Assembly: GCA_015060485.1 (NCBI GenBank)
Contig: SUYI01000006.1
Coordinates: 62,001 to 126,000, forward strand
Source: Prevotella sp.
GTDB lineage: Bacteria; Bacteroidota; Bacteroidia; Bacteroidales; Bacteroidaceae
Direction of reading: 5' to 3'
Length of the DNA stretch: 64,000 nt
The notes beneath the pieces were generated by a model. That model worked only from the letters and a program-made list of their open reading frames with translations, had not been told where the DNA came from and did not search any database. Positions 5,801 to 39,244 of this stretch are shown one piece after another (position 1 is the stretch's first letter; each line of letters starts with the position of its first letter). A program made the translations under genes and the position numbers.

Positions 5801-6027
5801 GTTCCAATAAGGGCATGTTCCATCTGCTGTGCTTCGCGATGCTTGCCAAGATTGACCAACTCTTTCTTAGCTTTTTCACGTAACTCTTGGGCTGCTGCCT
5901 TGGTAAAGGTAGTCATGATAACCTGGTCCGGATTCAACTTGTGGTCGAATACCATCTTCGCCACATCGGTTGTAATTCTATATGTCTTGCCAGATCCTGC
6001 TCCGGCACTGATGAATGTCTTTGCCAT
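2887..6027 (-). CDS. UvrD/Rep-type helicase-nuclease (AddA-like)
   Basis: About 1046 aa. Superfamily 1A helicase motifs are all visible: motif I SAGAGSGKT at the N-terminus, DEFQDS (Walker B), GDKKQAIYGFRGSD (motif III), TYHKSKGLEWK (motif V) and LLYVGVTRARE (motif VI). The C-terminal domain carries a PD-(D/E)XK nuclease signature, NGYIDLIWE then IVVDYKTCPG, followed by GDQLDCYQRALE. This is the AddA plan: DNA unwinding plus end cleavage. The start chosen is ATG 6027 (MAKTFISAG), which places motif I normally; an upstream ATG at 6057 would add 10 residues inside the preceding gene. It follows the AddB-like gene with a 12-bp gap and overlaps Sir2. Accessory in context, so possibly defence or recombination. 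Confidence 0.9.
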   Translation of the reverse strand: MAKTFISAGAGSGKTYRITTDVAKMVFDHKLNPDQVIMTTFTKAAAQELREKAKKELVNLGKHREAQQMEHALIGTVHSVANTFLTKYWYLLGIMPDAAAMEENELQMYRDHSLRGLLDPKDRSFLFKYAETYNVIYDAKERKSGINYEFWKADLCKVLDFIQWYGIKEDQIKDSIETTESFIVCLDEPKDDTSLMEYAQAVIIELEGVLSNMRQGSKVKAELERICYYKNRDLSADELDDLEAIAKGRCKDSDNTKRFSECLAGTKVFTAESAKHQREYASLIFRLACRWQKEYRQYKDEHHLIDFNDMEEMFLQLLDIKEVQRDITSRYTHLFVDEFQDSNPMQVRIFQKLSSLLNTCYVGDKKQAIYGFRGSDTELTAAVADSISDTEHLEHSYRSVEPLVNFSNAIFSQVFSQMTDKEVKLFMPEKNGNYTPVEHPLRLWPNSGDKTLALQIQQLILREKIAPKDIAVLARTNADLDRLADELRTLKVPVCRESNDIKESRSGRLMKALLTLVNTPFNQLARAEVAYLSEPGYHVTKIIEDRLDYLAVEGKTPSEYLKDLPILKRLTQLRSFRSKEEEEYSTNLLGYQSISSLVESLVIELDLYSLVQSWENAQAEETNLQVLIDLARKYEDYATKLAQPATVAGFIEFFTDQKQDGAANEDGVRLYTYHKSKGLEWKVVIMLSLDNDAADATKIATRSMLGCHHHREQQPTAENPNPPMTISLVRNIYGSSDAAKAVVTSRLQKHSLWETVSTHEIGEAARLLYVGVTRAREILILAPKEKDGAVSLSWFRSVGVNNINQLLDGSESQDLLGIGMPLHVERIDADNTLEWPEQSMNRVHDMTADFSSLDNILFVSPSKAGTTQHDHVVINDKEHRMHADSKGNDALMGDFIHQVFCCCDDSITENQIVKLRNSYGFTDKNMSEPGRLLDSWKYLTDTLEARYGKAIKRHHEKPFRHLDADGHIVNGYIDLIWETEDAYIVVDYKTCPGNYSLVFNPVSEHYAGRHGDQLDCYQRALEAEGNKKVAARIIYYPVTQFVVEVK

Positions 6028-15013: not shown

Positions 15014-16231
15014 CTACTCCTTTAATGGGGTAATATGTTTCCTTAGATCATCCTGAATATACCCGCTCTTATACATATCAATGGAAGGAATGTCGTGACA
15101 ACTATATTTAAGAGAACTGTCATATATTTCTATCAAATCTGCTGGAAGCTTTATCCTTCGTGGACGCATGGTGAGATTTCCGTCAGTGAGCGTGTCTGTA
15201 TACACAGAAATCCAATATCGTTGTGAATCCGACAGTCGATCGTCCTTCGCAAAAGTCTGATTGTTGATGAAGTTGCAATCTCTCCTAAGACCATACTTTT
15301 GAGTCTCCTCCACGTAATGAGTAATAGTCTTATATAATATCTTCCATACTGAATATACAACCTTGCGCCTGAAATCTTTGTCATACAGTTCCTGGGGTAA
15401 ACCAAAGCTGTATTTGTGAGTAAGCAATACAAGAAGATATGTCATCTTACAGGACTTTGTTGGGAAGTCCAATAGAATGGATTCGCCATTGTCAGTAACG
15501 ATGGAAATATCTAAGGTGCCAGTAACATCATTGGCATTGAACTTATTCTTTCCTTTATCAACGACGATTTTAAAACCGGGTTTCGTTCGTCCGTAATCAA
15601 TATCACCGGGTAGCATAAAGATACGGTCTTCTTCTCCATAATCCTCTTCGAATTTATAATTCAGGAAAGAAGAAAGATTTTCTCTTGATTCTTCAGGAGA
15701 AGCGTAACCAAACCGACGCTGCAGGAACTCAAATAATTCTTTTCGACTAGTATCTGTAAGAGAATCGAAATAATCCTCCAACTTCATCCCATCAGGAATA
15801 CAATAACCATCAGGCAATGATTCCCTTATAGTCTCATTTGCTGCATTGACAAGGACTCCCAATACGCCTCCTATTGTTCTGTTGAGCCTAGCCCAAAACC
15901 ATGGCGAGTCAGGCAACTGGTCAACAGTATCTGGCAAAAATGTGTAATCGAACTTGTCTTTAGGGAACAGTCTCGCTACCATGTGAGCAGAAGTAACGTA
16001 CTCATAAAGGTGAATATCAATGTCATCACCATTAATAATTGACTGTTTCTGACTATCAGCATCGAAATCAATCAACTCGATTTTGAAGTACTTCGTGCTA
16101 AATTCATCAGCGAGTCTTTGCAATGACTCTCTCCTTCTGGGCTTATTGTTCCATTTGTTTACAAACAGATAGAGCCGAAAGGGTGAAAGATTGAGATTTC
16201 TTATCTCGTCAGGCTTTTGTACTAAAAACAT
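15014..16231 (-). CDS. Hypothetical protein, 405 aa
   Basis: I do not recognise this protein. It is soluble, with a hydrophobic helix-like patch TIGGVLGVLVNAANET near residue 130 and an Asp/Glu-rich centre; there is no Walker motif, zinc finger or signal peptide. The start is ATG 16231, which has AAGGAG at the right distance; an upstream TTG at 16255 lies inside the -7 region (minus-strand TATCTTTG, 16253-16260) and is unlikely. No island palindrome is found 38 bp upstream of the -7 box. It sits between the deoxyribosyltransferase-like and PARG/HD genes, so a role in the same nucleotide or RNA pathway is possible but unsupported by motifs. Confidence 0.8.
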   Translation of the reverse strand: MFLVQKPDEIRNLNLSPFRLYLFVNKWNNKPRRRESLQRLADEFSTKYFKIELIDFDADSQKQSIINGDDIDIHLYEYVTSAHMVARLFPKDKFDYTFLPDTVDQLPDSPWFWARLNRTIGGVLGVLVNAANETIRESLPDGYCIPDGMKLEDYFDSLTDTSRKELFEFLQRRFGYASPEESRENLSSFLNYKFEEDYGEEDRIFMLPGDIDYGRTKPGFKIVVDKGKNKFNANDVTGTLDISIVTDNGESILLDFPTKSCKMTYLLVLLTHKYSFGLPQELYDKDFRRKVVYSVWKILYKTITHYVEETQKYGLRRDCNFINNQTFAKDDRLSDSQRYWISVYTDTLTDGNLTMRPRRIKLPADLIEIYDSSLKYSCHDIPSIDMYKSGYIQDDLRKHITPLKE

Positions 16232-16312
16232 ATAACTCCTTTTTTTTTGAGGCAAAGATACAATTAATGTTAGCCCAGCACAAGTGAATTAACGATTTTA
16301 ACTTGATCTGGA

Positions 16313-17860
16313 CTATTCTTTATCCAATTTAGCACTTTTGGAATCTGCATCATGAATTAATTTCACTAACACAGATTGTGACGATGCCGTCTGATAGTCG
16401 TAATTGTATATTTCAAACGCATCCTTGGTATGGATACCCATGTGCCATCTAATGGCGGCTTTTTCTTCTTCAGAAAGAACAAGTCCCCATTGAGTTAGTA
16501 TATCAACAGTCTTCGTACCATGCAGTCCATCACGATTTGAATAGTATTGCTTCGTATGGTGTGGACTCCCATGTTTCATGCAATATTCATCCATTTTACA
16601 CACATCATGTAATAATGAACAGATTGTAACACTGTCAACACCAAAGGAAAGAGCCTTCCCTGAGGCTTTCATATTTTGATAATCAGCATAAGCTTCTTGG
16701 TATACTCTGAGAGAATGGTGGGCAAGACCGCCTTCGAAGTTGTTGTGAAACTTGATGGATGCAGGTACAGTGTAAAAACCGCCATCATTCAGATTCTTAA
16801 GTACATTCTCAACTCCTTTCCTTCCTGTGGAAAGAAGAAGGGATTCTATTTCATGCTTATAATCATTCTTGGAGTCATCAAGTTCAGAATTATCATTATT
16901 ACTGCTACACTCTGGACAGAGTACCTCTTTAAAAGCGTTATAATTCCGACCGTGAGAATTGTGGTCTTCAATGATTGCAAAGTGAATCTCGCGAAATAGT
17001 CCCTGAAACTCTTTTTCGTTGAACACCTGTTTGAACAGTTCTGCCATGTGTTTGGGTGGATTAGCAAAGGCACCACAACCAAAAGCTCCGAGAACAAGTC
17101 GCCGCTGGCCATTGTTATATGCCAGTCGCAAAATAGTGCGCATAAGATTAAGTGTAGATGGAATGAATTGGTCTGGAATGGTCGTCCTTCCATCCATAAA
17201 TCGCCTGATATTGTTTGCTGCAACGGCCACAAAGTTAACCTGCCAAGGTGTTTCCAACAAAGCATACCCGTTTGCCTCAGTATCTCTGAAAACAGTAACT
17301 CCGTGAGAAAAGACGCCACCAAAATTTTTCTTCAGAGGATATGAATGATGCGTGTTATGTGGAATCCCATAGACTTTTTCGCAATCAAAAGAAGCGGGAT
17401 CAGCATATTGGAAGAGAAAACGGAAATAGTCGGAACAACGAAAGAGATATTCCTCCTGTGCACCAGCACCATTATATACGCCACCTCCAGGATTCTTGGC
17501 ACTGGCCATATTTAATACGCATAAGTCATCTGTATAGTCTTTATCCAAGAGTGTTTTGGCATATGCCAAACAGTCTTGATTAACTACCTTGAATTCTGTG
17601 TCGTATTTTCGCTCTACATTCCTTAATGAAATTTCTTTTTCGCAAAAGACATTGTCTTGAAGAGTTTTACCGTTATGGAGATTGTGGAAACGAACTATGA
17701 TACCAGAAGGAGTCTCGTATCCTCCACATTTCACTATTTCCAGAGTTGACTGGAAGACCTTTGCTCTAACAGGACGTGTACCGCCTTGAATACTTTTGGA
17801 TGCTTCAAACTCATTAAGCCAGACTTTAGCATCCCATGATGGATAGTTTTCTTTCGTCAT
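16313..17860 (-). CDS. PARG-type macrodomain / HD-domain fusion
   Basis: About 515 aa. The N-terminal ~310 residues are a bacterial-type poly(ADP-ribose) glycohydrolase (TIGR02452/DUF2263-like): VLNMASAKNPGGG, then YNGAGAQEE, giving the GGG-X7-QEE catalytic signature with both catalytic Glu residues. The C-terminal ~180 residues are an HD-type metal hydrolase: GLAHHSLRVYQEA supplies His, and SLLHDVCKMDE is the HD pair, with later IRWHMGIHT. The combined enzyme would release ADP-ribose and then act on a phosphate or nucleotide bond, for example a phosphodiester or nucleotide phosphate; the second substrate is inferred. ATG 17860 is preferred over TTG 17866. The upstream palindrome at 17962-17975 has 46-bp, not 38-bp, spacing. 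Confidence 0.88.
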   Translation of the reverse strand: MTKENYPSWDAKVWLNEFEASKSIQGGTRPVRAKVFQSTLEIVKCGGYETPSGIIVRFHNLHNGKTLQDNVFCEKEISLRNVERKYDTEFKVVNQDCLAYAKTLLDKDYTDDLCVLNMASAKNPGGGVYNGAGAQEEYLFRCSDYFRFLFQYADPASFDCEKVYGIPHNTHHSYPLKKNFGGVFSHGVTVFRDTEANGYALLETPWQVNFVAVAANNIRRFMDGRTTIPDQFIPSTLNLMRTILRLAYNNGQRRLVLGAFGCGAFANPPKHMAELFKQVFNEKEFQGLFREIHFAIIEDHNSHGRNYNAFKEVLCPECSSNNDNSELDDSKNDYKHEIESLLLSTGRKGVENVLKNLNDGGFYTVPASIKFHNNFEGGLAHHSLRVYQEAYADYQNMKASGKALSFGVDSVTICSLLHDVCKMDEYCMKHGSPHHTKQYYSNRDGLHGTKTVDILTQWGLVLSEEEKAAIRWHMGIHTKDAFEIYNYDYQTASSQSVLVKLIHDADSKSAKLDKE

Positions 17861-17918
17861 ATTCAATACTTTTCTGCAAAATTATAATTATTCTGTGATA
17901 TAACCAAATAATACCAAA

Positions 17919-17975
17919 CAAAGATGTACTATTGTTCAGTTCTCTTTATTAAAGTAGGTTCGCTATATGTATAGG
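17919..17975 (-). promoter_or_regulatory. Possible variant palindrome promoter (non-standard spacing)
   Basis: Minus-strand CATCTTTG (17919-17926) could be the -7 box of the PARG/HD gene, and GCTATATGTATAGG (17962-17975) resembles the island palindrome. The centres are 46 bp apart, not 38, and the palindrome lies inside the coding end of the small ORF at 17929. Weak candidate. Confidence 0.3.
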
Positions 17976-18192
17976 TTACTCTAAAACCAATATATGTGCA
18001 TCTGTCTCTTTGTATCTCATTTACTGTCTCAGACAACTCCTTTTGTCTGGTATTGACGAGCCATTCTACATTGATACCCTTTCGGCGCAGCGGACGCAAA
18101 TTACCCTTGCATAGTGTCCACAAATCCATGGCAAACCACGTAAGCAGAAAGAAGAACAGGAAATCCCTGAAAAATTTAAAAATACTCCTCAT
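17929..18192 (-). CDS. Small predicted membrane protein
   Basis: An 87-aa frame. The N-terminus, FKFFRDFLFFFLLTWFAMDL, is a strongly hydrophobic helix, followed by a basic region and a mixed C-terminus. Its ATG (18192) lies inside the end of the metallophosphoesterase gene, overlapping by 17 bp, an arrangement compatible with translational coupling. No homologue is recognised. Coding status is plausible but not proven; it could be a chance frame. Confidence 0.45.
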   Translation of the reverse strand: MRSIFKFFRDFLFFFLLTWFAMDLWTLCKGNLRPLRRKGINVEWLVNTRQKELSETVNEIQRDRCTYIGFRVTYTYSEPTLIKRTEQ

Positions 18193-18916
18193 AGGGTATA
18201 ATTTGAGTTACAGACTTGATTTTCCCCTTGTTATTGAGACAAAAAGCAGCCCGACAGTCGAGGCAGGCGAACTTGTCAGTCATTATCGGGCCGTCATATT
18301 GCATGGAATGGCCAACAATCTGATATGTGTCGGTCAAAGGATCCGATACAAGCATCTCCTCAACATCTGCCCAGACCATACTACCACTGGGATAGTCACC
18401 CCATCGCATTTCACCAACCTGCGCTAAGGCTTCCACCCCTTTATTGGTTTGGAGCAGACGGTTCAAATGATTCGCATCAGGTTCCCTTATCAAATCGAGA
18501 TTCCTTTTAAGCCAGCTCTGGGTGACTCCAGCATGAGAAAACAGATAGTGGATTCCACCCATGTCTGTTTCCCATGCTAGTTGGAAATATTGATGATTCT
18601 CCTGAAATAGGCGCTGAAGTACAATGGCTGATATTGGATCATATCTAACACCTCCTACTAATTCATAATAATGCTCAGAATAATAGTGGAGATCATGATT
18701 ACCCAACAGCAGAACGACTTTGTCTGGGTTATTCTGTTTGTAGGCAATAATGGATTTGAAGTTATCTACAGCCCTTTCATTCGTTATTCCCTCAATATCA
18801 TACGGATCTGTGTAATCTCCCAGGAAAACAATTCTCTCGTACTTGTTGCTGTCAATGGCTTCCTTCCAAAAGTCCCTACCATGGACATCAGGTATAATTA
18901 ATAGCCCCTTTTTCAT
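18176..18916 (-). CDS. Calcineurin-like metallophosphoesterase
   Basis: A 246-aa protein with the complete metallophosphoesterase series: IPDVHGRDFW (D-x-H), VFLGDYTDPYD (GDxxD variant), LLGNHDLHY (GNHD), FSHAGVTQSW (H) and VGHSMQ (GH). These ligate two metal ions for phosphoester hydrolysis. Relatives include serine/threonine phosphatases, ApaH-type dinucleotide hydrolases and the phosphatase modules of RNA end-healing proteins. Proximity to an RNA ligase (RtcB) and a PARG/HD enzyme makes nucleic-acid end or nucleotide hydrolysis attractive, but the substrate cannot be read from sequence. It lies 13 bp downstream of the sigma-factor gene's stop and is likely co-transcribed with it. Confidence 0.88.
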   Translation of the reverse strand: MKKGLLIIPDVHGRDFWKEAIDSNKYERIVFLGDYTDPYDIEGITNERAVDNFKSIIAYKQNNPDKVVLLLGNHDLHYYSEHYYELVGGVRYDPISAIVLQRLFQENHQYFQLAWETDMGGIHYLFSHAGVTQSWLKRNLDLIREPDANHLNRLLQTNKGVEALAQVGEMRWGDYPSGSMVWADVEEMLVSDPLTDTYQIVGHSMQYDGPIMTDKFACLDCRAAFCLNNKGKIKSVTQIIPYEEYF

Positions 18917-18929
18917 TCCTTCTATTATA

Positions 18930-19805
18930 TTACGCTCCCAAATGCTTAAGCAAGAGTCTTGATTTTGGACTCTTTCTTACCTTGTCAAGTCCACGCTCAC
19001 GAATCTGGCGGACACGTTCACGTGTTAATCCTAAGTCGTCACCAATGTCATCGAGAGCCCTCTCTTGACATCCTATGCCAAAACTCTGTATGACTATTGT
19101 TCTTTCCCTATCGTTAAGAACAGTACATAGTACCTGCATCAGGTCGCTACACATAGAGTCGTGGTTAACTTTACGGTCTGAGGCATATTCTGACGAAGAA
19201 CTAAGCATGTCTGCCATTGTTGTGCTTTCATCTTCTGTGATAGGAGCATCGATGCTGGAGACATGCGCCTCTGCCTGAATGGCTTTCTCAATCTTATCTA
19301 TCTCTAAGGAAATGATATCGCTCAGTTCTTCTGCAGATGGATAACGCTGATACTTCTGCATAAATGCATTGGTGGCATTTCTTATCTTGTTACTGATAGC
19401 AATCTGGCTTTGAGGTCTACGTACCATATTACTATAATCAGCTATGGCCTGAAGAATACTTTGACGAATCCACCAAATAGCATAGGAGATGAACTTGAAT
19501 CCACGTGTCTCATCAAACTTATCAGCGGCTGTAATAAGTCCCATATTACCTTCACTTATCAGATCAGTAAGAGAAACACCTTGATTCTGATACTGTTTTG
19601 CAACAGATACCACAAAACGCAAATTGGCAGTTACAAGCTTGTCCTTCGCGATTTCGCCCTTCTTACCTCCAGCATGGATAGCTTGAGCTAATGCGACCTC
19701 TTCATCAGTCGATACCATAGGCAAACGGCTGATTTCTGTCAGATACTTGTCGAGTGATTCCTCAGACCGAGGGGTAATGCTTTTGTTAATCTTCAGTTGT
19801 CTCAT
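18930..19805 (-). CDS. Primary-type sigma-70 factor (RpoD-like), accessory copy
   Basis: A 291-aa sigma factor starting MRQLKINKSITPRSE, very like the start of the main Bacteroidota sigma factor, which also lacks region 1.1. Region 2 is intact (NLRFVVSVAKQYQNQG, LISEGNMGLITAADKFD, FISYAIWWIRQSI), region 3 follows, and region 4 ends with DDLGLTRERVRQIRERGLDK, the -33 recognition helix. It is therefore a primary-type paralogue inside the accessory island. The start is ATG 19805 downstream of the -7 box TATCTTTG; longer frames run through the promoter. It has palindrome site 5 and precedes the phosphatase gene in one transcript. It may redirect polymerase to island or stress promoters. Confidence 0.9.
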   Translation of the reverse strand: MRQLKINKSITPRSEESLDKYLTEISRLPMVSTDEEVALAQAIHAGGKKGEIAKDKLVTANLRFVVSVAKQYQNQGVSLTDLISEGNMGLITAADKFDETRGFKFISYAIWWIRQSILQAIADYSNMVRRPQSQIAISNKIRNATNAFMQKYQRYPSAEELSDIISLEIDKIEKAIQAEAHVSSIDAPITEDESTTMADMLSSSSEYASDRKVNHDSMCSDLMQVLCTVLNDRERTIVIQSFGIGCQERALDDIGDDLGLTRERVRQIRERGLDKVRKSPKSRLLLKHLGA

Positions 19806-19830
19806 ATTCCTTAATTTTTTATTTCGGCGG

Positions 19831-19879
19831 CAAAGATAATAAAAGTAAAATACACATGCCTCCATTATATACGTATAAG
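19831..19879 (-). promoter_or_regulatory. Promoter with island palindrome (site 5)
   Basis: Minus-strand TATCTTTG (19831-19838) and TATATACGTATAAG (19866-19879), centres 38 bp apart, upstream of the sigma-factor gene. It lies back to back with site 6 for the divergent WG-repeat operon; the two palindrome centres are 66 bp apart. Confidence 0.76.
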
Positions 19880-19931
19880 ACAAATAGATGGTTCATGCAC
19901 CCATCCTCAAAACTCTTCCATGTGATTTGTG

Positions 19932-19980
19932 GTTATACGTATAGATGGAAAAGGCAATCCAAGTTATTATAGTATCTTTG
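19932..19980 (+). promoter_or_regulatory. Promoter with island palindrome (site 6)
   Basis: GTTATACGTATAGA (19932-19945) and plus-strand TATCTTTG (19973-19980) with the 38-bp centre spacing. It drives the WG-repeat/AAA+/acetyltransferase operon. An ATG at 19945 overlaps the palindrome and is upstream of the -7 box, so it cannot be the translation start. Confidence 0.76.
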
Positions 19981-20034
19981 CCCCCAGAAATCCAAGGACT
20001 TGCCGCGGATAATAACTTTAAAATAATATATAAT

Positions 20035-20799
20035 ATGAATGTAAAGACTGCTACAGACAACGAGAACAAGCCTAAGGCTACAGTGAAGAATCTCCAGTTT
20101 ATTGAAAAGCTGGATCAACTGATTGATATTGCTGAAAAAGAAGAGGAATCAGAAGAGGGATCTCCTGTTCAAGGACGTTCATCTGGTGATCTCCTGACTT
20201 TACGCGTAGGTTATATTGAGCGTTACGACTGGTATGACACCATCTTTGAGGAGAACGGCAAATATGGCACGAAGGACGTGACAGGCAAGGTAATATTGCC
20301 TGCACAATATGACGGGATTGGTGAACTGTGTCATCAGATATACTTCGGAAAACTACCTCGTGTAGCCGTTCTCAACGGAAAATGTGGACTAGTATTACCA
20401 GATGGCAGCGGCAAGGCTTTGACAGATTTTGAGTTCGATAGTATGTCTTACATGATTATCTTACCATATTTCAAGGTAAAGATGGGCGAGAAGTATGGCA
20501 TCATTCGCAAAGACGGCAAAATCATTGTTCCTTGTATACTTGATGAAGTATGTCTACCATTAGGACACTGTGTTGTGTTTAAGGCAAATGGGAAATATGG
20601 ACTTATAGACTCTTGGTGTGGTGATCTCTATGTTGCACCTGAGTATGACAACATTGAAATTGTCGATATGGAACAGCCTTATACTATGACTAAGGATGGC
20701 GTTGAAGGCGTCATCAATGAGAAGGGTGAGTTTATGACCCTTGAGGAATCTCTCGATTACGAAGATTACCTCGTTGGAGAATATAATCCAGACTTTTAA
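20035..20799 (+). CDS. WG-repeat protein
   Basis: A 254-aa protein with about five WG-like (KWG) repeats, each of the form G-K-Y-G-x-x-D..G-K-x-x-x-P..Y-D-x-I: for example GKYGTKDVTGKVILPAQYDG, EKYGIIRKDGKIIVPC and GKYGLIDSWCGDLYVAPEYD. WG repeats form beta-propeller-like surfaces and often mediate protein contacts. The start is ATG 20035 because the upstream in-frame ATG (19945) lies in the promoter. It is the first gene of a three-gene operon with an AAA+ ATPase (gap 28 bp) and a GNAT protein, so it may be an adaptor or substrate sensor for that ATPase. Confidence 0.82.
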   Translation: MNVKTATDNENKPKATVKNLQFIEKLDQLIDIAEKEEESEEGSPVQGRSSGDLLTLRVGYIERYDWYDTIFEENGKYGTKDVTGKVILPAQYDGIGELCHQIYFGKLPRVAVLNGKCGLVLPDGSGKALTDFEFDSMSYMIILPYFKVKMGEKYGIIRKDGKIIVPCILDEVCLPLGHCVVFKANGKYGLIDSWCGDLYVAPEYDNIEIVDMEQPYTMTKDGVEGVINEKGEFMTLEESLDYEDYLVGEYNPDF

Positions 20800-20827
20800 T
20801 TGGTAAAATATGATCAGAGGTAAAAAA

Positions 20828-22546
20828 ATGAAAAAACCGTTGCGCAGACTGAAGATCCAGGAAGAGACTGAAACAGACTTGGTTCCTGACTTCGTCGATG
20901 ATGGTGAGGAGCTTACCCTGTTGACAGCTATCAACAGTATCGTGACTCTCGCTGAAGATTCTGCACTAAGTAACTCTTTCTTTGAGAAAGCAGACCGATT
21001 CATTACTTATTTTTCTGAGCGTCAAGATATCACTAAAATCCAGGCTGTGCTGTTGGCACTCTTCATAGAGTCGAGTGCTGCTGGCAACAAGTCTGATTTC
21101 TCAGATGTTGCACGTTATCTTGACTGTAACAATGTCCAGGTATTACAATACAAGGGTGAAGTAGATGAACTTGTTAGAAAAGGTATGCTTCGCATGATTA
21201 AGAACAACATGAACCGCAGTTATGACTATGCGATTACTCAAGGTTTCATGGAAAATCTAGCAAAGAATGAACCTTATCAACGTAAATCATACAAGAATGC
21301 CACTGGAATCCAGTTTTTTCAGTATTTCTATGATATTACCCATCTGCGTCATGAGGATGAGCTATCTTCTGAACTAATGCTCGAAGAGATTGGGCGACTT
21401 ATGGATGACAATCCTGATCTTTCGTATGTGAAGGCCCTACGTGGCATAGGAATGTCAGCAGCGAGTGAGGCTGTAGTTACTCACATGTGCCGTCATTTGG
21501 TTCTTTGTGGAACAGTAAACATCCCTATGAGTCATTTGGTTTTCCTTTTCGATGAGCAACATCTAAAGTATGACTTTGATAGAGCAATGTCTGATGGACG
21601 GCATTACCTCGTTCGGAATGGCTGGGTTGAAAATGCGTTCTCAGAGGGCTTTAGGGAAAAAGATGAATATCAACTGACAACTAAATCAAGGGAAATACTA
21701 CTTCAGGAGTTTGAAATTAAACAGACTGACTGTAATAAAGGTTGTGACGTAATACAGAGCGATGGTATTGCTGAAAAAGATCTATTCTTTAACAACGAGG
21801 TCAAACACCAACTCGATGGATTGGCAGAGCTGCTTGATGAAAGCCATTATTTGAGTATCTGTGATCGTCTGAAAGAAAAAGGGCACCGCCAAGGTTTTGC
21901 GTGTTTGTTCTACGGCGCACCTGGGACAGGAAAGACAGAAAGCGTGCTACAGTTGGCCAAGAAAACTGATCGTGATATCATGCAGGTGAATATCTCACAA
22001 GTAAAAAGCATGTGGGTAGGTGAGAGCGAAAAGAATATTAAAGCCATCTTTGACCGATACCGTGCTGTGGCAAAGAACTCCAAACGTGTTCCTATCCTCC
22101 TTTTTAATGAAGCGGATGCTGTCATTGGCAAACGTAAGGAAGGAGCAGAGCGCTCTGTTGACAAAATGGAGAACTCTATCCAGAATATTATCCTACAAGA
22201 AATGGAATCACTGGATGGAATCATGATTGCTACCACAAACTTGGTTCAGAATATGGACGCAGCATTCGAACGAAGATTCCTCTATAAGGTTAAGTTTGAG
22301 AAGCCTGAATTGGCTCAGCGTACTAAGATTTGGCAATCAATGATGCCAGAACTATCTGAAAAGACTGCTGAGCGTCTGGCTTCTGCCTATGACTTCAGTG
22401 GCGGTCAGATAGAAAACATCACGCGTAAATGTGATATTGAGAGCATCCTTTACGGAGATGAGTTCGTGACAGACGAGAAGATTGAGCAGTACTGCCGTGA
22501 GGAAAATATTGTTAAAACGAGAGCAACACGTATTGGCTTTCAATAA
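20828..22546 (+). CDS. AAA+ family ATPase, paralogue of the 191-1951 gene
   Basis: About 572 aa. Walker A is GAPGTGKTE, Walker B ILLFNEADAVIGKR, and the arginine-finger segment MDAAFERRFLYKV; the pore-loop-like KSMWVGESEKN and the downstream FSGGQIENITRK are conserved with the paralogue at 191-1951. The N-terminal half again has a helical region with LLALFIESSA and a DNA-binding-like segment around SDFSDVARYLDCNN. The start is ATG 20828, preceded by AGAGG, matching the paralogue's start K-K-P-L-R-R-L; ATG 20810 is weaker. It lies between the WG-repeat and GNAT genes. Likely a remodelling ATPase; paired AAA+ genes at both ends of the island suggest duplication or two specialised versions. Confidence 0.9.
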   Translation: MKKPLRRLKIQEETETDLVPDFVDDGEELTLLTAINSIVTLAEDSALSNSFFEKADRFITYFSERQDITKIQAVLLALFIESSAAGNKSDFSDVARYLDCNNVQVLQYKGEVDELVRKGMLRMIKNNMNRSYDYAITQGFMENLAKNEPYQRKSYKNATGIQFFQYFYDITHLRHEDELSSELMLEEIGRLMDDNPDLSYVKALRGIGMSAASEAVVTHMCRHLVLCGTVNIPMSHLVFLFDEQHLKYDFDRAMSDGRHYLVRNGWVENAFSEGFREKDEYQLTTKSREILLQEFEIKQTDCNKGCDVIQSDGIAEKDLFFNNEVKHQLDGLAELLDESHYLSICDRLKEKGHRQGFACLFYGAPGTGKTESVLQLAKKTDRDIMQVNISQVKSMWVGESEKNIKAIFDRYRAVAKNSKRVPILLFNEADAVIGKRKEGAERSVDKMENSIQNIILQEMESLDGIMIATTNLVQNMDAAFERRFLYKVKFEKPELAQRTKIWQSMMPELSEKTAERLASAYDFSGGQIENITRKCDIESILYGDEFVTDEKIEQYCREENIVKTRATRIGFQ

Positions 22547-23194: not shown

Positions 23195-25459
23195 CTATCC
23201 GTTCAATAGTTTTGTCACGTCAGCCGGATTAAGCGCCCAATCATAGGTGTACGCTTCATCGGCATCCTCTACATTCTCCACAACAGTAAGGTTCTGAGCC
23301 TTGACCTTCATGTCGAGTAGCTGACCAATAGAGAGCTTCGCCTCCAACTTGTGGAGCAACGCTTCAATGGATGCACTGTCAGCCCCTCGCAGTGTCTGAG
23401 CCGTGAACGGCATTTCGAGCCAGATAATCTCGCGCTTAGCCACATCGAGTACACCGAATACCAAACCCTTGGAAAGATTGCCCTCGCTGATACGAACCAT
23501 GTGCTGTACACAGGAAGGATCGTAGGCCACACCCTTCTTTTCGGAAATCTTCATAGGATTGGCTGAGTCCATCCAACCAACTACCAGATTAGGAGACAAG
23601 GCTCCAACAGAGTATGCATTACAGGTGAAGGTGACATACTTGGCATCAGCTGCCTCCAATTCGGGCAAAGACAACTCAATATACTCGGCTGTACCCACCA
23701 TCTCAGGGATGGAACGGATGTCACCAGAGTGCTTTGCACCTACGCAAGTCAGACTGTAGTATGCACATTCTGAGACCTTACAGTTGGCACGGGCAATACG
23801 GGCGCTCAAGTCCATGTCGAGGTGCTGAGCGTGCAAGCCCTTTCCCCACTGGAGGAACAAACGAACGGCATCACCTTCTACAGGGAAGCGTGTTCCCATT
23901 AGGGCACATGACGTATCCTGGATGGTGGTTGAACGGTCGCCAACACTGACAGGGATATTGTAGAGCGAAGAATCTATGAAGATTGTCTTCGCCTCAGTCC
24001 CCTGAGCGGCAAAGCGTCTTGCCATAGAATCCCTATACAAGCCATCAACAGCATCAACCATTGCCTTACGTGCGTCATCATCATAGAGTGCCAGCAGCTT
24101 GTTGGGCTCTATCTTGTGAGTGACACCTGTGATAGGACGAGCCAGACGTGTCTCCTTGGGATCGAAGTAAGCTTCTGCGGCATTGCCCAGCGACAAGAGC
24201 AGACGGGCTGGCAACTTGTCGGCAATCTCCTCGAAGACGGCCAGTACCTTATCGCTTCCGAAGCGGAGCATAGAAGCAAACAGACAGCGAGCAAAGATAC
24301 CTGGACGCTCCTTCAGCAGTGCAAGGGTCTTGTCGGCATCGTTCTCTGAGCGAGCCTTATCCACACGGCCCTGCCATGTAGAGTAGTTCTGCTTGTAGAA
24401 TACATCGAGAATCTCAGCCAGATGGTCAAAACCATTTTTGCGTGAGTACTCACCCAGACGGAGCGCACGAATCATGCGTACCCACATACCACGCTTGGGG
24501 TTCATGTTCTCAGCAGCCTGCTTTGCTGTCAAAGGAATGGTGTTCAACCACAGTGCCACACGCAGACATGCTCTACGGTCGTACTTCAACATGAGTTTCT
24601 TCTTCATGTCCTTGGCAGCATCTACACCACGATTCAGTGGCCCCCACATATGGAAGTACAGTTTGCGGGCATGAGCCACGAGCGTCTTTGGCTCGATAAT
24701 CTGTACATAGCCAGTCTTTTCGTACCAGAGGTAACGCAGTACATCGGTAGGAGTCTTCAGTAACTTTGATGCCTCCTCAGCCTTATCCTGCTCTACCAAT
24801 AGCTTGACAACGAGCATGGCTGTTTCCTTCATGGTGATGTTGGCATCCTCAGGCAGCTGGAACTCACGCAACAGCTGCTCCAGAGAATCCTTTTGGGTTG
24901 CATCCAGAGGAGTTGCAGAAGTAAGGAGTGATGAAAACACATGCTTCATGTCATCAACTGTGAATAAACGCAGTTCCTTCAGCTTACTGCCCTGTCCCTT
25001 ATAGACAAAGTCTGCTGTCTCGAATGGTGTACCGCAGAACGGACATCCGTTATAGCGTTCGATGGGGAAGGTTCCTTCAGGAATGAGGTGTCCGCAAGGA
25101 AGTGTCGTTCCCTTGAAGCCTGCCTTCTCGCCAAAGATGTTAGCGATGAAGGTGATAAGATGGTCTGCAAATGTTTCACCTGTAGGCACATTCCACCCCT
25201 TAACGAGTGAAGCCCAGTTCAGGTTCACACCCATTACATCATTGATACACTCAGTAATCTCTGCAAGTCTGTCGGCAGGAACAGCATTCAAGGCATGAAG
25301 CAGTTCTTCACTGACGCATAAACCATTCTCCTTCAGACGGGCAACTAATGCCAATACAGGCACAGAGGCCTCAGAAGCCATGTTGATGTCCTTACGATTG
25401 ATGTCGAGGAACACGGCACGGTAGCGCAAAGCTACATTTGTCAAAGTCTTGTTGTTCAT
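23195..25459 (-). CDS. RING-finger / TerD-like protein (MXAN_6230/SCO0854 family)
   Basis: A 754-aa protein. A zinc-binding RING-like element lies at about residues 119-148: PCGHLIPEGTFPIERYNGC and PFCGTPFE give Cys122, His124, Cys139 and Cys142. The long middle is helical with HEAT-like character. The C-terminal ~200 residues (DAVRLFLQWGKGLHAQHLDM, SGDIRSIPEMVGTAEYIEL, VTFTCNAYSVG) resemble the TerD-type beta-sandwich. This matches, by memory, the bacterial family named MXAN_6230/SCO0854 and found near RNA-repair or stress genes. It follows the tRNA-like array and rtcB on the same strand, so it may be a scaffold or RNA-binding cofactor. ATG 25459 has a purine-rich leader; M27 is an alternative. 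Confidence 0.82.
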   Translation of the reverse strand: MNNKTLTNVALRYRAVFLDINRKDINMASEASVPVLALVARLKENGLCVSEELLHALNAVPADRLAEITECINDVMGVNLNWASLVKGWNVPTGETFADHLITFIANIFGEKAGFKGTTLPCGHLIPEGTFPIERYNGCPFCGTPFETADFVYKGQGSKLKELRLFTVDDMKHVFSSLLTSATPLDATQKDSLEQLLREFQLPEDANITMKETAMLVVKLLVEQDKAEEASKLLKTPTDVLRYLWYEKTGYVQIIEPKTLVAHARKLYFHMWGPLNRGVDAAKDMKKKLMLKYDRRACLRVALWLNTIPLTAKQAAENMNPKRGMWVRMIRALRLGEYSRKNGFDHLAEILDVFYKQNYSTWQGRVDKARSENDADKTLALLKERPGIFARCLFASMLRFGSDKVLAVFEEIADKLPARLLLSLGNAAEAYFDPKETRLARPITGVTHKIEPNKLLALYDDDARKAMVDAVDGLYRDSMARRFAAQGTEAKTIFIDSSLYNIPVSVGDRSTTIQDTSCALMGTRFPVEGDAVRLFLQWGKGLHAQHLDMDLSARIARANCKVSECAYYSLTCVGAKHSGDIRSIPEMVGTAEYIELSLPELEAADAKYVTFTCNAYSVGALSPNLVVGWMDSANPMKISEKKGVAYDPSCVQHMVRISEGNLSKGLVFGVLDVAKREIIWLEMPFTAQTLRGADSASIEALLHKLEAKLSIGQLLDMKVKAQNLTVVENVEDADEAYTYDWALNPADVTKLLNG

Positions 25460-25646
25460 AACTTCTTTTATTTAAAAGGTAATTGGCTCGCAGCGACAGG
25501 TTGCATGTCTGTCTCAACGTAGAGCATAGGAGTATGCCAGCCTTGACCTTGTTAATACTATGAGGTAATTGAAGAACTTTTTTGCAGAATAGGGCGTACC
25601 CGATCCAAGGGAGTAAGTCCTTCTTAAACCTCGTTATCTATTTTGA

Positions 25647-25764
25647 GCTGCGAGCAGGGCTCGAACCTGCGACCCATAGTACCACTTTAGAAGTATGTGG
25701 CGATTGGTCCTTCTCAGGAAATGTCATCACAAACCTATTGCTCTACCAACTGAGCTATCGCAGC
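25647..25764 (-). ncRNA. tRNA-like RNA 1 with expanded anticodon loop
   Basis: The minus strand folds as a cloverleaf: acceptor GCTGCGA/TCGCAGC (7 of 7 pairs), D arm GCTC-AGTTGGTA-GAGC, T arm GCAGG-TTCGAGC-CCTGC and a 5-nt variable loop. The anticodon stem (ATAG/CTAT) is kept, but the loop region is about 46 nt too long and contains internal hairpins (TCCT-GAGA-AGGA and CCAC/GTGG). Discriminator U, no encoded CCA. An ordinary tRNA is excluded by the missing 7-nt anticodon loop. It lies in the rtcB-to-RING/TerD gap on the coding strand of both genes. Confidence 0.8.
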
Positions 25765-25847
25765 ATTAAGAGAGGTAATTGACACTGCTATCCCAAAGTA
25801 TTCGCATTACCTAATAGAAGTAAGCAGCTCTTGACCTTCTCTTTAGA

Positions 25848-25964
25848 GGTACGGGGCAGACTCGAACTGCCGACACTTGACGGAGTATGTGCTAATTGGC
25901 CTTGCCGTCTGGAAGGAAATCTCAGAACAAATTATCAATGCTCTACCAACTAAGCTACCGTACC
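25848..25964 (-). ncRNA. tRNA-like RNA 2 with expanded anticodon loop
   Basis: Cloverleaf on the minus strand: acceptor GGTACGG/CCGTACC (7 pairs), D arm GCTT-AGTTGGTA-GAGC, T arm GGCAG-TTCGAGT-CTGCC, variable loop GTGTC, anticodon stem TTGAT/GTCAA. The loop is replaced by 52 nt, with a 5-bp hairpin GACGG/CCGTC. The insert shares TTTGT, TGA-n-ATTTCCT, AAGG-n-CCAAT and CACATACT with RNA 1, although their acceptor and T stems differ in sequence, so the insert is the conserved, presumably functional, part. Confidence 0.8.
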
Positions 25965-25975
25965 ATTATGTTTGA

Positions 25976-26064
25976 GCGGCGGGCTGGATTCGAACCAGCA
26001 GTAACCTTTAGGTGTAAGCAAACGTTTAGGCCATCTCTTTGGCAATTGCGAAGCTTACCGCCGC
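25976..26064 (-). ncRNA. tRNA-like RNA 3, degenerate D arm
   Basis: Acceptor GCGGCGG/CCGCCGC (7 pairs, extendable by A-U) and T arm GCTGG-TTCGAAT-CCAGC are perfect. The middle is 89 nt overall and does not give a normal D arm or anticodon arm; GCCA-AAGAGA-TGGC and TAAGC/GCTTA pairings are possible. It carries a divergent copy of the shared motif (26011-26033). Eleven nt separate it from RNA 2. Likely processed from the same transcript by tRNA-end enzymes. Confidence 0.65.
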
Positions 26065-26074
26065 TTATTGGAAA

Positions 26075-26151
26075 GACGGAAAGTGCGAGTCTAAACACGC
26101 CCCACAGTTAGGGCTCTAACCGGAAAGGAGTAAGATCTCGCTTAGTCCGCC
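26075..26151 (-). ncRNA. Possible fourth structured RNA just after rtcB
   Basis: Directly after the rtcB stop, the minus strand has closing helices GGCGGA/TCCGTC (one G-U) and GCGAG/CTCGC, plus an internal hairpin GTTAG/CTAAC. No proper T loop is present, so it is not called tRNA-like. It contains a partial copy of the array motif. It could alternatively be part of the rtcB 3' end or a processing signal. Confidence 0.4.
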
Positions 26152-26158
26152 TTTTTTA

Positions 26159-27331
26159 TTATCCTTTAATCACTGCCACTGGCAACAATCTTGTTTTCAC
26201 CTTAACCAGGTCAGTCTCATTAGCAATGACCTCCTCGATGTCCTTGTAGGCACCTGAAGCCTCTTGCATGTCCTCCTGAGAACGAATCGCATGTACGATA
26301 CCTTTTGCTTCAAGTTGGGCTACCTCCTGCTTCAGGTTCAGTGTCTTGATGGCCATCGAACGGGACATTACACGACCAGCTCCGTGAGAACATGAACAGA
26401 ACGAATCAGGATTACCCAGTCCTTCTACAATATATGATGCCGTACCCTGAGATCCGGGAATGATGCCAATGACTCCTTCACGGGCAAGTGTTGCACCCTT
26501 GCGATGTACAATGACATCCTGTCCGAAGTGATGCTCAAAAGCTGCATAGTTATGGGCGATGTTAATCATCGGCTCAAACTCTATGCCCTTAAGAGAATCT
26601 GCCAGCACCTCCTCGATGCGCTCCATCATGAGCTTCCTGTTGCAAAGGGCGAAATCAATACAGTACCTCATCTCTTTCCAGTACATTTCAAACTCCCTGC
26701 TGCCTCTGGCGAGGAAAGGAAGATGAATGTCTGGAGATACATTAGAGTACCATTGTGCATTGAGCGTTGCAGCTATCTTGTTGTAGAAGTCACCAACCTG
26801 CTTACCCAAGTTACGTGAACCGGAGTGTATCATGATCCAAAGTGTTCCTTCCTCGTCCTTCTGTAGTTCAATGAAGTGGTTGCCACCTCCCAAAGTACCG
26901 ACTTCGTGACGAATAGAGTGCTGACGGCGATTTACGACCTCCAACTTTTCTATGTCATGTCCTTCAGGCAGGTATTTCTCATCCTGCGGCTCCTTGTGGT
27001 GATCCATTCCCAGAGGAATACGCTCACGGATTCCCTTCATGATTTCCTTACGCAGTACAGTCGTTGGGATTTCGTTTACCTTCCAGTTGGTCTTCACTGC
27101 GCACATGCCACAACCGATATCCACACCTACGGCGTTAGGGATTACAACATCCTTGCATGCAAGCACACCACCGATAGGCATTCCCATACCTGTATGCACA
27201 TCGGGCATGATGGCCAGGTGATGGAAGAGGAAAGGAAGTGTGGTCAGGTTTTCAATCTGACGCATAGCCGACTCTTCCACATTGTCCGTCCAAATCTTGA
27301 CAGGACGGTTGTTGATCATCTTAACTTCCAT
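26159..27331 (-). CDS. rtcB: RtcB-family RNA ligase
   Basis: A 390-aa protein of the 3'-phosphate RNA ligase family, which joins 2',3'-cyclic phosphate or 3'-phosphate ends to 5'-OH using GTP and Mn2+. Signature blocks: NAVGVDIGCGMCAVKT (metal Cys), GTLGGGNHFIEL, SGSRNLGKQ, HNYAAFEHHFGQD, VHRKGATLAREG, IIPGSQGTASYIVEG and FCSCSHGAGRVMSR with the guanylated His. It is shorter than E. coli RtcB, as usual for the short clade. No archease or RtcA lies nearby. Its promoter has one of two matching operators shared with the divergent WYL gene, and downstream lie the tRNA-like RNAs, candidate substrates or guides. Confidence 0.95.
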   Translation of the reverse strand: MEVKMINNRPVKIWTDNVEESAMRQIENLTTLPFLFHHLAIMPDVHTGMGMPIGGVLACKDVVIPNAVGVDIGCGMCAVKTNWKVNEIPTTVLRKEIMKGIRERIPLGMDHHKEPQDEKYLPEGHDIEKLEVVNRRQHSIRHEVGTLGGGNHFIELQKDEEGTLWIMIHSGSRNLGKQVGDFYNKIAATLNAQWYSNVSPDIHLPFLARGSREFEMYWKEMRYCIDFALCNRKLMMERIEEVLADSLKGIEFEPMINIAHNYAAFEHHFGQDVIVHRKGATLAREGVIGIIPGSQGTASYIVEGLGNPDSFCSCSHGAGRVMSRSMAIKTLNLKQEVAQLEAKGIVHAIRSQEDMQEASGAYKDIEEVIANETDLVKVKTRLLPVAVIKG

Positions 27332-27508: not shown

Positions 27509-27545
27509 CTGCGCAAATAGGTTGCGTAGAAATTGCTTATCTTTG
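27509..27545 (+). promoter_or_regulatory. WYL-gene promoter with 21-bp operator 2
   Basis: On the plus strand, CTGCGC-N9-GCGTAG (27509-27529) is followed by TATCTTTG (27538-27545), with centres again 22.5 bp apart. Autoregulation plus control of rtcB by the WYL protein is the simplest reading. Confidence 0.78.
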
Positions 27546-27573: not shown

Positions 27574-28602
27574 ATGCCTGCAAACAAGAATGCTTTGATT
27601 CGGTACAAGACCATCGATAACTGTCTTCGCAACTATTATCGTCGGTGGACACTTGAAGACCTCGTGGATGCCTGTTCTGATGCCCTCTATGACATGGAGG
27701 GAATCCGCAAGGGCGTTTCTGTCAGAACTGTCCAAGGTGACATACAGATGATGCGTTCTGATAAACTTGGTTACAATGCGCCCATTGAGGTGTACGACCA
27801 TAAGTATTATCGGTATGCGGATAAAAGCTATTCCATCATGAATATGCCGATGTCACAGAATGACTATGATGTGATGCAGGAGGCCGTTGACATGCTTCGC
27901 CAACTGGAGGACTTTGAACAATTCTCGGAAATGTCGGACGTGGTTAGTCGTTTACAGGACAAGCTGGCCATCAGCCGTAATAATCGCAAGCCGATTATTC
28001 ATTTCGACAGTGTTCCGAATCTGGCAGGTATCCGTCTGCTTAACCCTCTCTACAACTATATCGCCCACAAGCAGACGTTGCGCATCATGTATCAGTCGTT
28101 CAATGCGAGAAAGCCAACAGAGTTTATCCTTTGTCCGTATCTACTAAAAGAATTCCGCAACCGTTGGTTCCTCTTTGGCTCCAAGCAGGATGACCTGAAG
28201 CTTTACAATTTGCCCCTTGACCGCATCAAGAGTGTTGAACCCACAAAGGTGCCATTCAAAGAGAACCCAGACTTTGACCCGGAACACTTCTTTGATGATG
28301 TTATTGGTGTCAGCAAAAACATCAATAACAAACCCCGAACAATCAAGTTTTGGGCAAATAGAGAGCAGAGCCATTACATCAAGACAAAACCAATACACCG
28401 ATCTCAGCAAGTAATAAGTGAGAACCATGAAGATGGCAGTTGCGTATTCAAAATTGAGGTGGTCATCAATTTTGAGATGTACTCGGTCTTTATGTCCTAT
28501 GGTTCAGGCATTAAGATTGTCTATCCTCGCAATGCAGCTATGTATATGCGTGACAAACTCAAAGAAGCCTTGGCACTCTATAATACTGAAGAAGAGCGAT
28601 AG
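27574..28602 (+). CDS. WYL-domain transcriptional regulator
   Basis: About 342 aa. The N-terminal ~80 residues form a winged helix (IRYKTIDNCLRNYYRRWTLE, then VSVRTVQGDIQMMR). The central WYL domain has LRIMYQSFNARKPTEF, ILCPYLLKEFRNRWFLFG and LYNLPLDRIKSVEP, and a WCX-like C-terminal domain follows. WYL regulators sense ligands, often nucleic-acid ends or nucleotides, and commonly control defence and RNA-repair operons. The start is ATG 27574, downstream of the -7 box; the longer frame runs through the operator. It is divergent from rtcB with paired operators. Activator or repressor status is not decidable. Confidence 0.92.
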   Translation: MPANKNALIRYKTIDNCLRNYYRRWTLEDLVDACSDALYDMEGIRKGVSVRTVQGDIQMMRSDKLGYNAPIEVYDHKYYRYADKSYSIMNMPMSQNDYDVMQEAVDMLRQLEDFEQFSEMSDVVSRLQDKLAISRNNRKPIIHFDSVPNLAGIRLLNPLYNYIAHKQTLRIMYQSFNARKPTEFILCPYLLKEFRNRWFLFGSKQDDLKLYNLPLDRIKSVEPTKVPFKENPDFDPEHFFDDVIGVSKNINNKPRTIKFWANREQSHYIKTKPIHRSQQVISENHEDGSCVFKIEVVINFEMYSVFMSYGSGIKIVYPRNAAMYMRDKLKEALALYNTEEER

Positions 28603-37774: not shown

Positions 37775-39244
37775 ATGGCGTATCAAGTATTAGACATTAA
37801 AACCCAAAAGGGAATGAGTGAAGCGGAGAGCGCAGAGCATCTTAGAAAGCGTACTACGGATTCCCTGAAGGAAGCAAAGCGCAAAGGTAACTATGATGTA
37901 ACCCGTGAGCCTCTGAACTTTGAGATTGGCAAGGGCTGTGTTATCAAGGCCATCGATAAGCAGCATAGTATACCGACACGGATGAGGGCAAATCTTATCA
38001 GTCGTGGCATCAAAGACCCGAACGAGGGCTTGAAGGAAGGGAAGTACCGCACCGTGGTCAATATGATCCTTGGCGGTTCTCGCGAACAGATGAGACGTTT
38101 GGCTTTCGGCGACCAGACAATCAAGGAAGGGCTTGATGCTGACAACTCTCAGGTGACAAGGAAACCTGACATCGAGAACTGGGCAAAGGACATGTATCAG
38201 TTCATGGCCAAGAAATATGGGGAAGAGAACATCGTTGCTTTCGTTGTTCATCTGGACGAACTGAACCCGCATATCCATTGTACGCTGATGCCTATCGACG
38301 AGACAGGCAAGTTCAACTACAAAGGCATCTTCAACGGCAAAGGAAAGAAATTCGGGCTGAGTGACTATTATTTCCGACTCCATGATGAGCTGTCTATTAT
38401 CAACAAGAAATATAGTCTTGACAGAGGCTCACACATAGCGGAAACGGGAGCACGTCACCGAAGCACGGAAGAATATGTGCGCCACCTCGACGAACAGCGT
38501 GAACAACTGGAGCAGAAATGCAGTACGCTTCAGAATGAGATCACCATCTATCGCCAAACCAAGAGAGAGTTGGATGAGGAGATAAGAAAGGCTGACAAGC
38601 GTGTGAAGGGTCTGACAACGATGATTGGCAATCTGGAGAAAGACAAGTCTGGAATCGAAAAACAAATTGAGGAGCTGAAACGCTCAGGCGAGGAGAGTTC
38701 CCGTGAGACCCAATCCAAACTCTTTATCCTTCAACAGCAGTTGCAGACTATTGAGAACAAGATTGAGGACAAACAGGAAAAACTGGATGCTGCCGTAGTC
38801 CAGTTAAGACAACTGGGTGAACAACATCGTGAGCTGTCTGACCAGTACGAACATCTGCAGGAGGAGGTCAACAAGGTCGTGCCAATAGCAGAGGAGCGTG
38901 CCTTCCAGGGTGTGCAGGCTCAACTGTCTCAGATGATGATTGATGATACGAAGATTCAGTTCTCCAGACTGTCACAGTTGGATGCCAGGGCTTTGGACTA
39001 CTTCGAGGGAACGCTGCTGATGGATATGGCTGAGCATGGCCAGGCTATCATGACAGTGGCTGCAGCTCTCTTCCTCGGATATGTCGATAAGGCAACGGAG
39101 TTTGCACAGACACATGGAGGTGGCGGTGGCCCTAGTGGTGACTGGGGAAAGAAGGACGGTGAGGATGACCGAAAATGGGCAAGGCGCTGTCTGGCAGAAG
39201 CCGCAAGGATGATGAAGAGCAATGGCAGGAACAGACGGCGTTAA
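37775..39244 (+). CDS. MobV-family relaxase (Mob_Pre-type)
   Basis: A 489-aa protein. The N-terminal ~200 residues form the relaxase domain; the metal motif VVHLDELNPHIHCTLMPI is the H-x-D-E-x-x-P-H-x-H signature of MobV enzymes. A long coiled coil follows (about residues 230-370, rich in Glu/Gln/Lys), and the C-terminus has a glycine-rich stretch and a basic tail (NGRNRRR). MobV relaxases nick oriT and pilot the single strand. The coupling-protein gene is 5 kb downstream on the same strand. Confidence 0.9.
   Translation: MAYQVLDIKTQKGMSEAESAEHLRKRTTDSLKEAKRKGNYDVTREPLNFEIGKGCVIKAIDKQHSIPTRMRANLISRGIKDPNEGLKEGKYRTVVNMILGGSREQMRRLAFGDQTIKEGLDADNSQVTRKPDIENWAKDMYQFMAKKYGEENIVAFVVHLDELNPHIHCTLMPIDETGKFNYKGIFNGKGKKFGLSDYYFRLHDELSIINKKYSLDRGSHIAETGARHRSTEEYVRHLDEQREQLEQKCSTLQNEITIYRQTKRELDEEIRKADKRVKGLTTMIGNLEKDKSGIEKQIEELKRSGEESSRETQSKLFILQQQLQTIENKIEDKQEKLDAAVVQLRQLGEQHRELSDQYEHLQEEVNKVVPIAEERAFQGVQAQLSQMMIDDTKIQFSRLSQLDARALDYFEGTLLMDMAEHGQAIMTVAAALFLGYVDKATEFAQTHGGGGGPSGDWGKKDGEDDRKWARRCLAEAARMMKSNGRNRRR

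Follow-up and report, generated by a model that had tools for sequence, protein, structure and literature searches.

A 64,000-nucleotide (nt) stretch of DNA from Prevotella sp. (GCA_015060485.1, contig SUYI01000006.1, positions 62,001 to 126,000 of the forward strand), hereafter the window, harbored an array of seven structured RNA elements on its minus strand (25475-26151), lodged between rtcB and a gene for a RING-TerD protein. Four elements belonged to an open-ended type (S) and three to a tRNA-like type (P), and all seven shared a covarying two-helix motif ending in UUACUUC. These RNAs are, with reasonable probability, Y-RNA-like partners of the RING-TerD protein, whose middle third has a predicted fold similar to the RNA-binding ring of human Ro60. 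The original prediction, made from the letters of the window, had described three tRNA-like RNAs beside rtcB. All three proved real, on the minus strand, but four further elements with the same motif (25475-25552, 25561-25633, 25771-25840 and 26075-26151) had been overlooked.

A two-helix motif in two strand orders

The features of the locus are listed below with scores from R1, a covariance model of the S type, R2, a model of the P core, Rfam and Pfam. The elements of the window were themselves members of the R1 and R2 training sets.

23195..25459, minus strand: RING-TerD protein, 754 amino acids (aa), with N-terminal helices, RING (~aa 118-146), predicted Ro60-like helical middle (aa 158-490) and TerD (aa 525-701)
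23990..24988, minus strand: DNA of the predicted Ro60-like middle domain, as folded alone
25475..25552, minus strand: S-type RNA (open-ended motif), closest to the RING gene; R1 49.0 bits, training-set member
25561..25633, minus strand: S-type RNA; R1 53.7 bits, training-set member
25646..25764, minus strand: P-type tRNA-like RNA 1; Rfam tRNA 52.9 bits; permuted core 25689-25733, R2 50.6 bits, training-set member
25771..25840, minus strand: S-type RNA between RNA 1 and RNA 2; R1 47.2 bits, training-set member
25847..25964, minus strand: P-type tRNA-like RNA 2; Rfam tRNA 46.8 bits; permuted core 25881-25931, R2 36.4 bits, training-set member
25976..26064, minus strand: RNA 3, P-type mini form (acceptor, core and T arm, without D arm); core 26010-26057, R2 35.7 bits, training-set member
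26075..26151, minus strand: S-type RNA beginning 7 nt past the rtcB end; R1 41.2 bits, training-set member
26159..27331, minus strand: rtcB, 390 aa; Pfam RtcB 375.7 bits, the sole RtcB match in its own genome
27424..27431, minus strand: TAACTTTG, probable promoter of rtcB-RNA-RING
27509..27529, no strand assigned: inverted repeat CTGCGCA-N7-TGCGTAG, predicted operator, between the WYL gene and rtcB
27574..28602, plus strand: WYL-domain regulator, divergent from rtcB; Pfam WYL and WCX

S elements displayed the order 5'-AAGGU-C(C)AAG-[H2]-CUUACUUC-loop-AG-[H2']-CAAUUACCUU-3' and, in most loci of the same genus, stood directly before the RING gene. The motif comprised a bulged C, two A-U pairs and an AA bulge opposite. 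The P core, located inside the tRNA-like RNAs, read H2'-CAAUUUCC-loop-GGACCAA-H2-UACUUC and was a circularly permuted S element. By eye, no full tRNA body was evident in S elements, and some displayed T-arm-like hairpins. An Rfam search with one S RNA returned nothing near a cut-off. No paper on this RNA emerged from titles and abstract beginnings, preprints and most subscription papers lying outside that search.

Among 20 S sequences, 11 of the 15 pairs displayed changes on both sides; AA, UACU-C and the pairing UU were invariant, and the base preceding AA was C in 16. Larger sets were gathered from 80 named loci (the best 80 of 354 candidates from a genome scan, at least five of whose contigs, judged by length, also occurred in the 149-genome set considered below). 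In these alignments, both of which were fitted to a model, 90.9% of cells paired in 132 distinct S sequences (covariation 0.559 vs 0.159, 0/500 shuffles) and 87.2% in the P core (0.530 vs 0.202, 0/500 shuffles).

tRNA frames around the permuted core

RNA 1 and RNA 2 displayed a 7-base-pair (bp) acceptor stem and a 5-bp T stem, both perfect, as well as a D arm, with an insert at the position of the anticodon loop. Measured against a functional tRNA, their acceptor, D and T arms were present and the 7-nt anticodon loop with its anticodon was absent. RNA 3 consisted of the acceptor and T arm around its core, without D or anticodon arm, as had been described initially. ARAGORN, run as a tRNA finder, called no tRNA in the window, so the anticodon arm of these RNAs is non-standard, and the earlier reading of an insert in place of its loop held.

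R2 retrieved 45 P cores from the 80 named loci. Once a wider spacing was allowed, all 45 proved to be framed by a T stem and by a 7-bp acceptor stem that was perfect in 44; an earlier and narrower test, which did not admit the mini form, had accepted 25 of them. Only 54 of ~3,900 random positions passed the same acceptor and T-stem test (4000 draws, those on two short loci being skipped). Room for a D arm was left around 27 cores, 26 of which displayed 4/4 D pairs, and the remaining 18 adopted the mini form of RNA 3. Acceptor stems diverged widely yet were still paired. Together with the covariation of the core in both S and P sets, the regular framing supported the original claim that the insert is the selected part of these molecules. 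In three loci (L167 at 5759-5870, L171 and L175), two permuted cores were found in tandem within one tRNA body of ~187 nt; the 45 hits hence correspond to 42 bodies.

The count of changes on both sides did not rise above shuffles in the larger S and P sets (299/500 and 158/500). Speaking against the tRNA-like structure, RNA 1 alone reached a better free-energy fold (-39.8) than the fold made of tRNA plus core (-35.0). The lowest-energy fold of one Flavobacterium copy was a tRNA with an extra arm, identical to the model.

P copies from Flavobacterium included a class in which an anticodon-type hairpin adjoined the core, its loop reading CUUUUAA, CUUCUAA, UUUCUAA or UUGUUAA. Near-identical tRNA bodies (L090-L098) displayed UUU, UCU or GUU at the anticodon position, which speaks against a decoding role. 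These copies bear on two alternatives. In the first, which we regard as unlikely, the P type would serve as a decoy or sensor for anticodon nucleases, a tRNA-shaped bait sparing real tRNAs or reporting tRNA damage, with RtcB mending the cuts. The framing of all 45 permuted cores from the 80 named loci by a tRNA body is in its favor, as is the 7-nt anticodon-type loop that most Flavobacterium copies keep by the core (UUU, UCU or GUU with U33/A37-like flanks); in addition, YrlA has been proposed to inhibit an anticodon nuclease by competition (PMC7790460). S elements, however, were more numerous and carried the same core without an evident full tRNA body, RNAs 1 to 3 of the window had no obvious anticodon loop, conserved positions were located in the core and not in the loop, and nine of the 15 RNA-positive genomes lacked an RtcB match.

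The second alternative, less probable still, takes the P-type core for a tRNA intron, excised by some endonuclease before RtcB joins the halves into a working tRNA. Removal of the core from several Flavobacterium copies left a canonical anticodon arm (GGACA-CUUUUAA-UGUCC), with one compensatory change (L096t1), and ARAGORN read two copies (L019 and L027) as intron-bearing tRNAs. An intron is nevertheless hard to reconcile with RNA 2, which would retain no anticodon-like loop, with the mini form lacking a D arm, with a would-be anticodon that varies among near-identical bodies, with the same motif occurring as S type outside tRNA bodies and with the frequent absence of RtcB.

Co-occurrence with the RING-TerD gene

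Co-occurrence was assessed in 149 genomes (own included) and in 395 Bacteroidota genomes; large genome searches used stricter Infernal filters, and metagenome-assembled genomes are incomplete. Among the 149, the S model and the RING protein were each found in 15 genomes and together in 14. The exceptions were G045, which displayed a 47-residue protein fragment without the RNA, and G085, which displayed the RNA without a protein match. In G045 (C1:3084154-3084373), short matching fragments of RING-TerD and RtcB lay side by side, perhaps as a relic of a lost locus. Among the 395, the RNA was detected in 11 genomes, exactly those with a full-length protein match, and was adjacent to the gene; ten further matches to NF041916, the family of MXAN_6230/SCO0854 RING proteins, were all partial. 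These associations, along with the predicted fold described below, favor the suggestion, made among others in the original prediction, that the RNAs are scaffolds for the RING/TerD protein.

Its other suggestion, that they are decoys, guides or substrates for RtcB, fared poorly as a core function. Co-occurrence with rtcB, which had been expected to be telling, was weak, with a match in six of the 15 RNA-positive genomes against 14 shared of 15 each for the RING-TerD gene, and rtcB stood beside the gene in two of 15 RING-TerD loci (the window and 14 others). RtcB was accordingly rejected as an obligate partner. A broader link to RNA repair did find support, genes for RtcB, RNA ligases and PNKP-type enzymes being located near the array in some Flavobacterium loci.

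The RNA adjoined the RING-TerD gene in 11 of the 14 genomes harboring both and was found elsewhere in the genome in G009, G049 and G063. In 77 of the 80 named loci, S RNAs preceded the gene by 72-1344 nt on the same strand. This position would suit a cis-acting leader of the RING-TerD mRNA, an autoregulatory binding site of which the P types are by-products, but that reading is improbable: the RNA lies away from the gene in the three genomes just named, so that linkage and cis action cannot account for everything, it occurred without the gene in G085, and G070 harbored a second, unlinked copy. In addition, a promoter-like box (TATATTTG) was located 8 nt before the RNA in G009 and G085.

Loci harbored one to five S RNAs. 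At E < 0.1, the ten Flavobacterium loci gave 41 S hits, four or five in each. P RNAs, one or two per locus, accompanied them in nine; the tenth (L097) was without a P hit, both by Rfam at its cut-off and by R2 at E < 0.5. A Segatella hominis plasmid carried two S and one P RNA, and a Hymenobacter plasmid one S RNA and one tRNA-like RNA, the latter missed by R2 and its core visible by eye only. With these occurrences, the pairing of RNA and RING-TerD gene extends over three lineages of Bacteroidota. One might instead regard the elements as selfish or decayed repeats, derived from tRNA and of no use to the host, in agreement with their variable copy number and with the doubled cores in single tRNA bodies; this is very improbable in view of the strong covariation, the invariant loop nucleotides and the close tie to one protein family across these lineages.

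Outside this range, distant RING relatives in Variovorax, Streptomyces and Niallia were devoid of R1 or R2 matches. In the betaproteobacterium Variovorax sp. WDL1, plasmid 2 (L224 5986-8214; 3011-4663) encoded a distant RING-TerD relative (24%) near the RNA-repair activator gene rtcR. It was followed downstream by 1 kb of non-coding DNA with two similar elements that display GCCUUCCUUCUAA and a UUAGGC partner and that, to the eye, might be Y-like.

Predicted likeness to Ro60, resemblance to Y RNAs and links to RNA repair

The middle domain of the RING-TerD protein was predicted to be ring-like and helical, resembling Ro60 over ~257 residues. Several searches failed to support homology. Foldseek alone showed no Ro60 among the 50 matches listed, TROVE (PF05731) matched none of 22 RING-TerD members by sequence, HHalign against 16 TROVE proteins gave 0.2% for the whole protein and 0.1% for the domain, and a profile of the middle domain found no match among PDB sequences. 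The protein carries RING and TerD domains instead of the C-terminal vWA domain of Ro60. It aligned with NF041916 over residues 12-688 (173.6 bits, short of the curated cut-off of 600). The family's one-line description is silent on any RNA partner or Ro60-like fold, and a paper search with the names SCO0854/MXAN_6230 found none. Among the best 80 of the 354 candidates, the RING protein most similar to that of the window was from Prevotella ruminicola KHT3 (93%). No RING relative was confirmed in viral contigs; six phage records (Rhodococcus phage Weasels2, Lactobacillus phage LpeD and others) displayed weak partial matches to the middle and TerD part.

Ro60 orthologues occur in most metazoa and in ~5% of sequenced bacterial genomes (PMC4726728); their role is poorly understood. 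In the RYPER particle, PNPase is tethered by Rsr together with YrlA (PMC8394870), and some rtcBA operons include Ro60 and Y RNAs (PMC7790460). No TROVE protein was detected in 80 genomes (own included), and TROVE presence was rejected as an explanation. Among the 395 Bacteroidota genomes, TROVE was found in 27, of which one (G437, 1/11 RNA-positive) also carried the RNA. Twenty TROVE loci from these 27 genomes were examined, and 18 displayed YrlA-like RNAs (20 hits, under the Rfam cut-off). A model of TROVE-locus Y RNAs (R3), built from 12 of its own 45 hits, covered 18 of the 20 loci and added shorter Y RNAs. Bacteroidota TROVE genes (L099-L118) were accompanied by multi-Y-RNA arrays whose matches to YrlA and Deinococcus Y RNA were all under Rfam gathering scores.

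The consensus of these Y RNAs was AAGGUGYCGUAGA-H2-UUACUUCG, followed by T arm, acceptor hairpin, D arm and H2'-...UUACCUU. UACUUC followed the 5' stem strand in 18 of 20 YrlA-like RNAs when counted by hand from the sequences; scripted counts gave 12/19 and 14/20, the T-loop search having misplaced some RNAs. The window resembled rsr-yrlBA-rtcBA in having a small-RNA array beside a Ro-like gene and rtcB, the latter not being general. As in Bacteroidota Y RNAs, the basal stem of S and P elements comprised a helix, a distorted internal loop and a helix, followed by UUACUUC. In all 45 P cores the stem was attached to a tRNA-like domain at its anticodon side, and the circular order was that of YrlA: stem strand, UUACUUC, T arm, acceptor, D arm, other stem strand. 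P RNAs, however, are open at the acceptor, with natural tRNA ends, and closed at H1, whereas YrlA is open at the basal stem; the internal loop differed (C(C)AA / CAA), and the neighboring protein is not TROVE by sequence. The YrlA family (RF02553) reached 24 bits on the window, in a match spread across two RNAs, for a gathering score of 69. R1 found no match in TROVE loci and R3 none in S loci, so that the likeness stops short of demonstrated common descent.

It is evenly balanced whether the array represents a second, TROVE-independent Ro/Y ribonucleoprotein system, in which RING-TerD proteins carry Ro60-like rings, have RNA arrays of their own and use, in part, permuted Y RNAs with natural tRNA ends, the same closed topology being opened at two places in two parallel systems. 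Much as Ro60 holds the basal stem of a Y RNA, the ring would clasp helices H1 and H2 together with the bulged C. With its UUACUUC exposed and its tRNA-shaped part, the RNA would recruit a second RNA-processing partner, for which PNPase offers a precedent. A tRNA body could allow tRNA end-processing enzymes to mature P-type RNAs and would make the particle a tRNA mimic. If so, the RING-TerD family would gain a predicted RNA-binding function and an RNA partner, Y-type RNAs would gain a form with true tRNA ends, and ubiquitin-type RING and TerD domains would sit on an RNA-repair particle. A Flavobacterium johnsoniae record (P0224, the protein record alone) encodes the RING-TerD protein, which would open the idea to study in a tractable laboratory species.

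In the window, rtcB ended 7 nt before the array on the same strand. TAACTTTG fits TAnnTTTG, the Bacteroidota -7 consensus, and probably serves as promoter of rtcB-RNA-RING. A WYL gene similar to that of the window was located near Flavobacterium arrays, and the repeat CTRCGCA-N6-9-TGCGYAG was found upstream of the array in nine of the ten Flavobacterium loci. Of 77 other loci, only eight had the strict pattern in the 400 nt preceding the array (~2.5 expected at the overall rate there of 73 per 885,535 nt), so the repeat is not general. We infer that the WYL regulator binds the inverted repeat; it would switch on the array together with rtcB and other RNA-repair genes upon RNA damage. In Flavobacterium, the same repeat was also observed upstream of an RtcB gene (L093 2602) and of an Rnl1-type RNA-ligase gene (L089 2175). 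Judged from these sites, its distribution suggests that the array promoter and both kinds of genes share one RNA-repair regulon.

Burroughs and Aravind are reported to have described, in 2016, a tRNA-like molecule with SPFH/Band-7 proteins in RNA-repair operons; this molecule may overlap with the P type. A Band-7 gene was present near the array of one Flavobacterium locus (L095). Elsewhere in the window, genes at 15014-22546 encoded a PARG-type plus HD protein, a calcineurin-like phosphoesterase, an RpoD-type sigma factor, a WG-repeat protein and an AAA ATPase weakly resembling the anti-phage protein IteA (101 bits vs a cut-off of 510). By eye, an open reading frame at 37775-39244 looked like a plasmid mobilisation (MobB-type) protein, and the region may be mobile.
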